Below, one piece after another: positions 33,997 through 36,242 of a DNA stretch of 64,000 nucleotides; within the stretch, counting starts at the first letter, position 1, and every line of letters starts with the position of its first letter. A program made the translations under genes and the position numbers. Source of the stretch: Hydrogenovibrio sp. JE_KL2 (GTDB taxonomy: Bacteria; Pseudomonadota; Gammaproteobacteria; Thiomicrospirales; Thiomicrospiraceae). The DNA lies in contig NZ_WBJR01000001.1 of NCBI RefSeq assembly GCF_009296185.1, positions 744,001 through 808,000 on the forward strand. Reading direction: 5' to 3'. The notes under the pieces were generated by a model. That model was not told the DNA's origin, searched no databases, and worked only from the letters and a program-made list of their open reading frames with translations.

Positions 33997-34611
33997 ATGT
34001 TACAGCAAGACCGCTCCCGTAAACCATTTTCATCCTCGAGTGAAGAAAACAAACACGTGATTCTTGAGGCGATCTCGCCCCTGCTGACAACGCGTTCAAC
34101 CGTCTTGGAAATCGCCAGCGGCACCGGGCAGCATGCCGTGCATTTTGCCGCGGAAATGCCACATCTGATTTGGCAAACGTCTGATCTAATGGAATCTCAT
34201 AATGGCATTCAACAGTGGATTGCCGATGCCGAACTCGCCAATGTGTTGCCACCACTTTGTCTGAATGTATCAGAAGATGCATGGCCAAGTAAAAGTTACG
34301 ATGCAGTGTTCACCGCCAACAGTTTTCATATCATGGCGCACAAAAATGTAGAGGATTTCTTTGCCAGTATTTCATCCGTATTGAATGAAAACGGCATCAT
34401 CATGATTTATGGGCCGTTCAATTATAACGGACAGTACACCAGCGACAGCAATGCACGATTTGATGTTTGGCTAAAACAGCGTAACCCGGAAAGTTGTATC
34501 AAGGATTTTGAATGGTGTGATGGCTTGGCGAAAGATGCCGGTTTAAAGCTGAAAGCGGATATTGAAATGCCGCAGAACAACCGTATTCTGATTTGGCAAC
34601 ATAAGCCTTAA
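33997..34611 (+). CDS. DUF938 SAM-dependent methyltransferase
   Basis: A 204-residue class I methyltransferase-fold protein. The SAM-binding motif TVLEIASGTGQHAVHFA follows the family's N-terminal KPFSSSSEENKHVILEAI block. YDAVFTANSFHIMAHKNVE and IIMIYGPFNYNGQYTS match DUF938. The substrate is unknown. It is divergent from the UDG gene and convergent with dps across a shared terminator. Confidence 0.88.
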   Translation: MLQQDRSRKPFSSSSEENKHVILEAISPLLTTRSTVLEIASGTGQHAVHFAAEMPHLIWQTSDLMESHNGIQQWIADAELANVLPPLCLNVSEDAWPSKSYDAVFTANSFHIMAHKNVEDFFASISSVLNENGIIMIYGPFNYNGQYTSDSNARFDVWLKQRNPESCIKDFEWCDGLAKDAGLKLKADIEMPQNNRILIWQHKP

Positions 34612-34670: not shown

Positions 34671-35120
34671 TTAGACGTACTTTGCTTCGCCCTTGGTTGC
34701 CAATAACATCCAATCTTCTTTTTCCAACACTTCCAATTGGTCATCGGCCAATGCCGCCGTGGTGCGATCTCCTTCATCGTCAGCGGTTTCTGCGAGGGTT
34801 CTGTAACTGTCAATCAAATGCTTCAGCATCTTCTCAACATACGCCAATACTGCTTTTTCATCAAAAACCTTATCGTTCAATGGCGCCAATGTCGAAGCGG
34901 CTTTCAACTCATCCACGTTCAAAAGCGGCATCGCCCCTTTTTGCAGTAAACGTTCTGCGGCGTCGTCATACATTTCCGACATACGTTCATAGTAACCTTC
35001 CGTCATTTCGTGCATGGCTTTAAATCGTGGCCCTTGCACCAGCCAGTGAATTTGATGGAGTTGAAGATAATAGGCGTGGGCGTTGGCTTGAATGGTTTTA
35101 AGTTGAGTGATGACTGACAT
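34671..35120 (-). CDS. dps: Dps-type ferritin-like DNA-protection protein
   Basis: A 149-residue Dps/ferritin-like four-helix protein. The ATG at 35120 has AGGAGA ahead; an upstream extension is unlike the family. The inter-subunit ferroxidase residues are present in HQIHWLVQGPRF and EMTEGYYERMSEMYDDAAERLL. Dps oxidises and stores iron and protects DNA from peroxide. A perfect 17-bp palindrome in the promoter region suggests control by a Fur/PerR-class or similar dimeric regulator. Confidence 0.9.
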   Translation of the reverse strand: MSVITQLKTIQANAHAYYLQLHQIHWLVQGPRFKAMHEMTEGYYERMSEMYDDAAERLLQKGAMPLLNVDELKAASTLAPLNDKVFDEKAVLAYVEKMLKHLIDSYRTLAETADDEGDRTTAALADDQLEVLEKEDWMLLATKGEAKYV

Positions 35121-35147
35121 GTTGTTTCTCCTGATGTTTTTAACCCA

Positions 35148-35164
35148 ATAAGAACAGTTCTTAT
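35148..35164. promoter_or_regulatory. perfect 8-1-8 palindrome upstream of dps
   Basis: ATAAGAACAGTTCTTAT is a perfect 17-bp palindrome 28 bp ahead of the dps ATG, close to where the promoter -10 and start point would fall. The central 7-1-7 layout resembles Fur/PerR-family boxes, though the bases differ from the standard Fur consensus. Confidence 0.5.
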
Positions 35165-35253
35165 ATTTGCAAAAAACCACCCCAATAGCAAGAAAGGAGT
35201 ATGGACAGAGAACGAATATTTATTAATCGCCTCAATAGTTTATGTCTATTGAT

Positions 35254-35300
35254 AAAAAAAGGGGGATGGCCGGTTCATCCTAAACACAGCTCCATCCCCC
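35254..35300 (-). terminator. terminator after the small ParA partner gene
   Basis: Nine-base-pair stem GGGGGATGG/CCATCCCCC (35261-35269 with 35292-35300), followed on the minus strand by seven T. Its right arm overlaps the start of a dispersed-repeat copy. Confidence 0.75.
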
Positions 35301-35349: not shown

Positions 35350-35613
35350 TCAGTCAGGCCAAACGCGTCGGTTTGACCCCATCGGTTTAATGGTTTCAGA
35401 CGCTTGCTCAGCTTTTGGTGCGGGCTTTGCAGTTGTTCTCGTAGCGGTTGATTTTGCTGCAGGCGCTCTTCGGGTAGTTGGTTTTGCTGCTGTTGTTTTT
35501 GGTGTAGCTGTTGTTGCCTTTTCTTCGTCTGCCGCTTTGTTTTCGGTTTGCGCGGTCTTAGCTCGACGTACGCTATTGGTTAGTTTTGATCCTGCTGTTT
35601 GTGTATTGCTCAT
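35350..35613 (-). CDS. small disordered basic protein, partner of ParA-type ATPase (McdB-like candidate)
   Basis: An 87-residue protein dominated by Ala, Thr, Lys and Pro, clearly disordered, with TTRRAPAAKSTATRTTAKP in the middle and a C-terminal NRRVWPD. Its only Trp lies two residues from the end. Its ATG overlaps the stop of the ParA-type gene (ATGA), so the two are translated together. Small disordered partners of orphan ParA ATPases include McdB of alpha-carboxysomes, which to my memory carries an invariant near-terminal Trp. It could also be a histone-H1-like DNA-binding protein. No carboxysome genes are in the window. Confidence 0.7.
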   Translation of the reverse strand: MSNTQTAGSKLTNSVRRAKTAQTENKAADEEKATTATPKTTAAKPTTRRAPAAKSTATRTTAKPAPKAEQASETIKPMGSNRRVWPD

Positions 35614-36242
35614 AATACCTCCTCAATAATTTCATCTACTTCCTGCGCTGCCGCTGCACCTGTCTTGCCAACACAGTAAACACTCGCACCATCGACTGCC
35701 GCATTACGATAAATCGCTCTGCGACGAATACCGCCTTTCAATGCGGGAATATCAAACTCTTCCAACGCTTGCTTCATCGCATTCGACAATGCACTACGAG
35801 GTTCTAACTGATTCACCACGATATAAGGCTTCAGCGCACGGTTTTGCATCTTAGCTTGTTCAATCGCTTCAACCAAACGGATACTCGCCCACAAGTCCAC
35901 TGGCGACGGCAATACCGGTATCAATATCACGTCCGATACTTTCATTGCCATTTGCATCACACCCGTTTCAAGCGTTGGCGGGCAATCAATGACCACAAAG
36001 TCATAATCCTGTGCGAAACGCTTTACTTCTGTCGCCAGGTTGCCGCCAACGCGAATCACCGATACCGGGAATAATCTGTCTTCCGGCGCAAGGCTGCACC
36101 ATTGCCCGGCTGAACCTTGTGGGTCGGCATCAATCACTAAAGCTCTTCCGCGTTTGGCTAGACCTGCGGCAAAATTCATACTCAAGGTGGTTTTGCCGGT
36201 TCCCCCTTTTTGGTTGGCGATTGAAAAAATACGTGCTGGCAT
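35610..36242 (-). CDS. ParA/MinD-type ATPase, orphan positioning ATPase (McdA-like candidate)
   Basis: A 210-residue ParA-family ATPase with the deviant Walker A KGGTGKTT, the A' motif VIDADPQGSAGQW and Walker B FVVIDCPPTLE. It is short, with no N-terminal helix-turn-helix, unlike chromosomal ParA, and no parB gene or parS-like array is nearby. Such orphan ATPases position cargos such as carboxysomes, chemoreceptor clusters or polymer granules by oscillating on the nucleoid. The immediately downstream disordered gene is the likely cargo-linked partner. Confidence 0.88.
   Translation of the reverse strand: MPARIFSIANQKGGTGKTTLSMNFAAGLAKRGRALVIDADPQGSAGQWCSLAPEDRLFPVSVIRVGGNLATEVKRFAQDYDFVVIDCPPTLETGVMQMAMKVSDVILIPVLPSPVDLWASIRLVEAIEQAKMQNRALKPYIVVNQLEPRSALSNAMKQALEEFDIPALKGGIRRRAIYRNAAVDGASVYCVGKTGAAAAQEVDEIIEEVL

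Follow-up and report, generated by a model that had tools for sequence, protein, structure and literature searches.

The window analysed here, a stretch of 64,000 nucleotides on one contig (C1) of the Hydrogenovibrio sp. JE_KL2 genome, encodes a ParA-type ATPase and a small partner protein which, judged by sequence comparison and with a probability of about 93%, form a displaced alpha-McdAB pair (type 1) for alpha-carboxysomes. This reading draws on the tail motif and the N-terminal motif of the small protein, on the grouping of the ATPase, on the co-occurrence of the pair with cso genes, and on the cso operon of the genome itself, and these lines of evidence support the displaced McdAB that the original prediction had proposed. 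A displaced alpha-McdAB together with an orphan type 2 McdB in the operon is an arrangement already in print, and the published description, in the parts consulted, fits the window pair feature by feature (PMC8262871).

The gene pair and its small protein

Both genes lie on the minus strand. The putative alpha-McdA, an ATPase of 210 amino acids, is encoded at 35610-36242, and the putative alpha-McdB of type 1, an adaptor of 87 amino acids, at 35350-35613, confirming the overlap of a short ParA-type gene with the gene for an 87-residue protein that had been described earlier. The 4-bp overlap reads ATGA, and a Shine-Dalgarno-like GAGGAGG within the 3' end of the ATPase gene (35618-35624, minus strand) precedes the second ATG. 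The 4-bp spacing is shared by 17 of the 18 genomes with an ATPase match, the deviating one (G011) having an uncertain start. A consensus scan places a weak candidate terminator with a 5-bp stem and a T run 3' of the small gene (35264-35280, minus strand), with 2 terminator-like sites in the stretch against 2.3 expected by chance, and the promoter scan of the stretch yields a single promoter-like candidate, which is on the plus strand, with counts at the chance level.

The ATPase matches the NCBIfam ParA_partition model (NF041546) with 204.3 bits at a cut-off of 180. Its deviant Walker A motif KGGTGKTT (residues 12 to 19; 36186-36209, minus strand) is the only occurrence of KGGxGK[ST] in the window, and the residues K12, G13, G14, G16, K17, and T19, where K12 and K17 include the signature lysine, are invariant among 20 aligned homologues. 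No ParB is found among the tested neighbours of the pair, in agreement with the earlier description of a ParA without a ParB. Directly 3' of the pair and likewise on the minus strand lies a ferritin-like gene (34671-35180; Pfam Ferritin), which the NCBIfam Dps models match below their cut-offs, and a DUF938 methyltransferase-like gene (Pfam PF06080) is found at 33997-34611. The cso operon likewise has a ferritin-like gene (L083:11648-12196), a parallel that is possibly a coincidence.

In a tree of 41 chosen rows, composed of 25 ATPases collected earlier and 16 from weaker ParA places and retaining long branches, the window ATPase shares a set, supported at 95/91, with ATPases from other families whose genes lie near CsoS2; one other ParA, on a long branch, falls into this set as well, while nine further ParAs make up a clade of their own. 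A quicker tree of 67 rows recovers a firmly supported set of 27 displaced ATPases that includes the window ATPase, and support is weak (66) for the larger set that also takes in the cso-linked ATPases. Its identity to cso-linked proteins is 62% (G054), 60% (G052), 44% (G048), and 39% (G042). With the reference ATPases defined by their nearness to CsoS2, and the Halothiobacillus neapolitanus pair compared through published descriptions, the window ATPase appears to belong with the ATPases encoded at cso operons.

The small protein is composed of 17 Ala, 17 Thr, 10 Lys, 7 Arg, 7 Pro, and one Trp among its residues, a biased composition with few hydrophobic residues as judged by residue counts alone. 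The Pfam and NCBIfam searches give no family match at the limits used, including DNA-binding families. The lone Trp precedes just P and D at the C-terminus, as had been noticed in the original prediction, and the ending RRVWPD (residues 82 to 87; 35353-35370, minus strand), the presumed carboxysome-binding tail, fits the R(V/I)WPD consensus given for alpha-McdB tails in the part of PMC11321042 consulted, bearing out the suspected likeness to the alpha-McdB C-terminus. Near the opposite end, SKLTNSVRRAK (residues 10 to 20; 35554-35586, minus strand) is the presumed McdA-binding helix, judged by motif counts, pN/pS, and the literature, where residues 1 to 20 of H. neapolitanus McdB are described as both required and sufficient for binding to McdA (PMC12204374, consulted in part). 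The pN/pS values, calculated from six same-genus homologues, uncorrected and with silent sites near saturation, are 0.17 for the N-terminal part up to RRAK, 0.56 for the middle, and 0.16 for the last 12 columns; because both ends show low values, the open reading frame behaves like a gene whose two ends are constrained. These two ends would fit the jobs of McdA docking and carboxysome binding.

A WPD-ending protein is also encoded directly 3' of the ATPase in relatives, its middle differing greatly in length and letters. The pattern for this tail plus a stop, MGNRTNTGGCCNGAYTRR, which is degenerate and tolerates Ser in place of Arg and Met in place of Val/Ile, has 51 matches in 55 related genomes versus 2 with the reversed control. 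Nine of the 51 end in TGG and were removed, and the remaining 42 end in a true stop, with 40 RVWPD tails, one RIWPD, and one SVWPD. The WPD-plus-stop is present in 28 of the 29 CsoS2-positive relatives versus 0 of the 26 CsoS2-negative ones, the sole CsoS2-positive relative without it being G020, whose CsoS2 is on a 14.8-kb contig. All 16 genomes of the closest named loci, some of them from the same species as among the 55 relatives, have a WPD pattern match and 15 have CsoS2; the CsoS2-less member is a 1.1-Mb genome, which is G106 by identical match places and has a BMC match.

A KLxxSVRxAK-type motif is found in 47 of 57 rows of ATPase-adjacent proteins versus 0 of 36 rows of orphans, for which the first 60 residues were used; with 3 duplicates among the adjacent rows, the count becomes 44 of 54 distinct rows by subtraction. 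The ten adjacent rows where it is missing are six from genus g6 of the host family, three near variants (G042, G048, and G011), and the L011 row, where a stretch is masked and the start is misplaced and whose actual frame carries the motif.

Carboxysome genes in the host and across the class

The genome, with Thiomicrorhabdus and Hydrogenovibrio as nearest named relatives, comprises 2.44 Mb in 15 contigs and has one cso operon, which lies on contig C10. The operon includes genes for the large and small rubisco subunits, CsoS2, CsoSCA, an EutN/CcmL-type protein, and BMC proteins, with a further open reading frame as a candidate second EutN/CcmL-type gene. Further on come the ferritin-like gene and a pterin-dehydratase-like gene, followed by an orphan gene whose product ends in RRRVWPD (L083:12459-12749). 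There are four BMC-domain matches on C10, the fourth of which lies, like a LysR-type regulator, beyond the orphan WPD gene. Judged by this gene set, the host would make alpha-carboxysomes. Every BMC and CsoS2 match of the genome is on C10 and none on C1, in line with the earlier remark that no carboxysome genes adjoin the pair.

A second McdA beside the cso genes was considered and rejected: no KGGxGK[ST] motif is found in any frame of the 32 kb around the operon (C10:108000-140000), and no second full-length match to the window ATPase exists in the genome, where it is also the only protein over the NF041546 cut-off. The next-best ATPase match, on C2, adjoins a ParB-like gene, forming a ParA-ParB-like pair (L084; named from translations). 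The original prediction had named an McdAB beside the cso operon as evidence against itself; the operon region has no ParA motif and the genome no second full-length match to the window ATPase, so this refuting case is absent, and the genome check leaves one cso operon, one orphan McdB-like gene, and no second McdA by these searches.

Across the host class, 369 genomes were searched with a profile built on 20 ATPases of this kind, including three g6 sequences. At 1e-32 the profile matches 100 of the 369 genomes, for which a manual sorting gave 68 strong and 32 weaker matches, the line between them, likewise set manually, falling at E ~1e-59; the partial match in G383 (1.5e-53, below the best weak match) was counted as strong with its place near CsoS2 in view. 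CsoS2 is present in 63 of the 68 strong-match genomes (62 of 67 without G383), in 9 of the 301 other genomes, and in 0 of the 32 weaker-match genomes, kinship being ignored in these and all other co-occurrence tests, and 9 of the 72 CsoS2-positive genomes of the class have no strong ATPase profile match. The strong matches reach wider than the McdA clade of the 41-row tree because the profile holds the three g6 rows, and a g6 genome (G015) is among the 68. Among the five strong-match genomes without CsoS2, four show BMC matches that pass the cut-off, though in three of these genomes it is a single weak or partial match; the fifth, G406, has no BMC match, and its ATPase lies 338 bases from a contig end, with a LysR-type gene and then a SulP-type transporter coming after it (names read from translations). 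A WPD-stop match lies within 1.3 kb of at least 56 of the 69 strong ATPase places, and the other 13 have no WPD match nearby among the matches listed; tails such as RTWPD or RCWPD escape the pattern, as do contig ends.

The orphan adaptor and relatives with other gene sets

The orphan at L083:12459-12749 lies in the cso operon and has the WPD tail, with no mcdA beside it; it carries no KLxxSVRxAK-type motif, and its first 30 residues include a few Lys and one Arg. In the parts of PMC8262871 consulted, alpha-McdB type 1 is described as being next to mcdA, in the cso operon or distant from it, and type 2 as an operon orphan without a charged N terminus, its role being called undetermined. That role is still given as open in the consulted part of a 2026 review (PMC12918739). 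The published mark of type 2 applies in part, because the orphan here, unlike the published type, keeps some basic N-terminal residues (PMC8262871). With this difference, the window pair and the operon orphan match the published split of type 1 and type 2 (PMC8262871, as far as consulted). The review also places a McdA-less McdB copy "removed from the cso locus" (PMC12918739, same part), whereas the McdA-less copy in the genomes here sits in the cso operon.

The presence of a second adaptor appears to vary with where the ATPase gene lies. Where the ATPase is elsewhere, at a distance of at least 12 kb from CsoS2 or on a different contig, at least 15 of 23 genomes have a further WPD match that is not beside the ATPase and is less than 12 kb away from CsoS2, versus at least 2 of 40 genomes with the ATPase within 12 kb (Fisher p = 4e-7, kinship ignored and among the matches listed); because a contig change can be an assembly break, some of these 23 ATPases may be near CsoS2. 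An extra match near CsoS2 is also found in at least 5 of the 9 CsoS2 genomes without a strong ATPase match. The orphans differ from the adjacent proteins in a further stretch, HIA[DE]x[IV][KQ], which precedes the tail in 15 of 36 orphan rows, one of which (G009) is off the CsoS2 contig, versus 0 of the 57 ATPase-adjacent rows. A HIADxIK-like stretch is seen in 14 of 17 host-family orphans, including L083:12459-12749, and in one orphan of another family, and no mention of it was found in the parts of the alpha-McdB literature consulted.

Four carboxysome genomes of the host family keep the operon WPD protein (G013, G016, G029, and G033; loci L112, L114, L122, and L126), and in them neither a protein search at 1e-20 nor NF041546 at its cut-off reveals an McdA. 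An operon WPD protein without McdA fits an ATPase-independent role of type 2. Two of the four, G013 and G016, have another short ParA, of the kind seen beside Gly/Asn/Tyr-rich proteins (below), with no WPD partner.

Genus g6 shows a further gene set. In 6 of its 6 sampled genomes, a WPD-tailed protein is encoded directly 3' of an ATPase outside the McdA clade (L136, L137, L138, L139, L141, and L142, about 9 to 56 kb from CsoS2), and the N terminus of this WPD partner also differs. Holding the g6 ATPases within the McdA clade is rejected with an AU p = 5e-7 in the thinly sampled 41-row tree with its long branches, a value that is too favourable because the tested group was named after the 67-row tree. 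A replacement of McdA in this genus is possible on these sequence comparisons. A WPD partner of an ATPase outside the McdA clade is not mentioned in the literature as far as it was covered, which does not extend to MacCready et al. 2021. Both the operon WPD protein that persists without McdA and the g6 ATPase outside the McdA clade may be new findings.

Taken further, the WPD tail could be a portable carboxysome address. In the host family, one ATPase would then serve a genome with two WPD adaptors, of which only one can dock on it, the operon adaptor would have an ATPase-independent job and persist without McdA, and g6 would carry the same tail on the partner of a ParA of different lineage, a non-orthologous replacement. 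We put this idea forward tentatively, and at somewhat less than even odds.

A different short ParA (open reading frames of 206 to 240 amino acids) is seen in G007, G013, G016, and G020 beside Gly/Asn/Tyr-rich, secreted-looking proteins (L140:432-3586, L135:105-3480, L143:294-3320, and L144:428-2133), and three of the four loci also have a one-helix membrane-like protein, both descriptions being read from translations. One neighbour matches the Pfam sulphur globule protein family SGP with an E of 0.001 and 20.3 bits, below the cut-off of 26.7. These loci may represent a sulfur-globule-linked ParA system, and the titles and abstracts searched describe no such pair.

Alternatives, mechanism, and known systems

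The original prediction had also left room for a related pair serving another cargo. A storage granule, a protein cluster, or a chromosome locus would be candidates for such a cargo, and the separation of the pair on C1 from all BMC and CsoS2 matches on C10 would agree with this reading. It was rejected on the co-occurrence with CsoS2 and is in our view very unlikely: 63 of the 68 strong-match genomes have CsoS2, four have BMC matches, and the ATPase of the last one, G406, is near a contig end. Further against it, the same-genus CsoS2-less genomes G002, G006, and G007 have, in 3 of 3 cases, no ATPase at 1e-20 and no BMC or WPD-stop match. Likewise, for 20 of the weaker ParA places, where the ATPase open reading frame was recovered in 16, the longest open reading frame just downstream has a WPD end in 0 of 16 (15 with such a frame, one without any).

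Even less probable is a partition module of a plasmid or integrative element, in which the ParA would work, as ParF does with ParG, with a small partner that binds DNA. The NCBIfam name of the ATPase, "ParA family partition ATPase", points that way, as do the nearest solved structures by sequence, plasmid ParF and a ParA (4dzz and 5u1g, E ~1e-23), the solved McdA 6noo being matched far more weakly (2.5e-5); but at the limits used the partner matches no DNA-binding family, it carries the carboxysome tail, and the nine other ParAs fall into a separate clade, and on these grounds the module was rejected. We give as little credence to the pair being a decaying leftover that is no longer needed, with the operon McdB copy doing the work. 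The four genomes that retain the operon WPD protein but show no McdA in the searches used would be in line with such decay, but the window protein has low pN/pS values at either end, which argues against it, as does the ATPase frame, which is open, with no internal stops, in 13 of 13 family genomes whose ATPase shares at least 70% identity with that of the window.

If the pair is a displaced alpha-McdAB, the ATPase would dimerise with ATP and coat the nucleoid, and the small protein would dock on it through the N-terminal SKLTNSVRRAK while its C-terminal RRVWPD holds carboxysomes, the cargo being made from the cso operon on another contig. Adaptor-bearing carboxysomes would release the ATPase locally, and the resulting gradients would spread the carboxysomes along the nucleoid. 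The RRVWPD protein of the operon, having no docking motif, probably binds the same carboxysomes and may tune the number of adaptors that engage the ATPase.

The analysis thus identifies the likely carboxysome-positioning ATPase of this genome, a role that the curated name would hide. The finding is largely expected, displaced McdAB pairs having been described, and the window pair itself is of modest interest; of higher interest are the natural experiments around it, where genomes with one McdA and two McdB-like proteins, and relatives with an operon McdB-like protein but no McdA found, provide natural gene sets that make the role of type 2 testable. With the plasmid ParF-ParG and ParABS systems the pair shares the ATPase family and the placement of the partner gene, and unlike in those systems the partner has no ParB or DNA-binding match and has a carboxysome tail.

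Closer to the window pair, the beta-McdAB of cyanobacteria also combines a nucleoid ATPase with an adaptor whose C-terminal Trp is essential (PMC11321042, PMC12918739), although its McdB is longer, coiled-coil, and oligomeric and serves a different carboxysome type (PMC8262871, PMC11321042). The alpha-McdAB type 1 of H. neapolitanus shares the ParA ATPase with the partner gene directly 3' (PMC8262871) and, compared by description, a short McdB, described there as disordered, with a basic N-terminal segment and the R(V/I)WPD tail (PMC8262871, PMC11321042, PMC12204374). That pair is close to the cso operon (PMC12918739), whereas the window pair is on another contig. All these comparisons refer to the consulted parts of the papers, and there the cso-distant alpha-McdAB accompanied by an operon orphan of type 2 is exactly the layout found here (PMC8262871).
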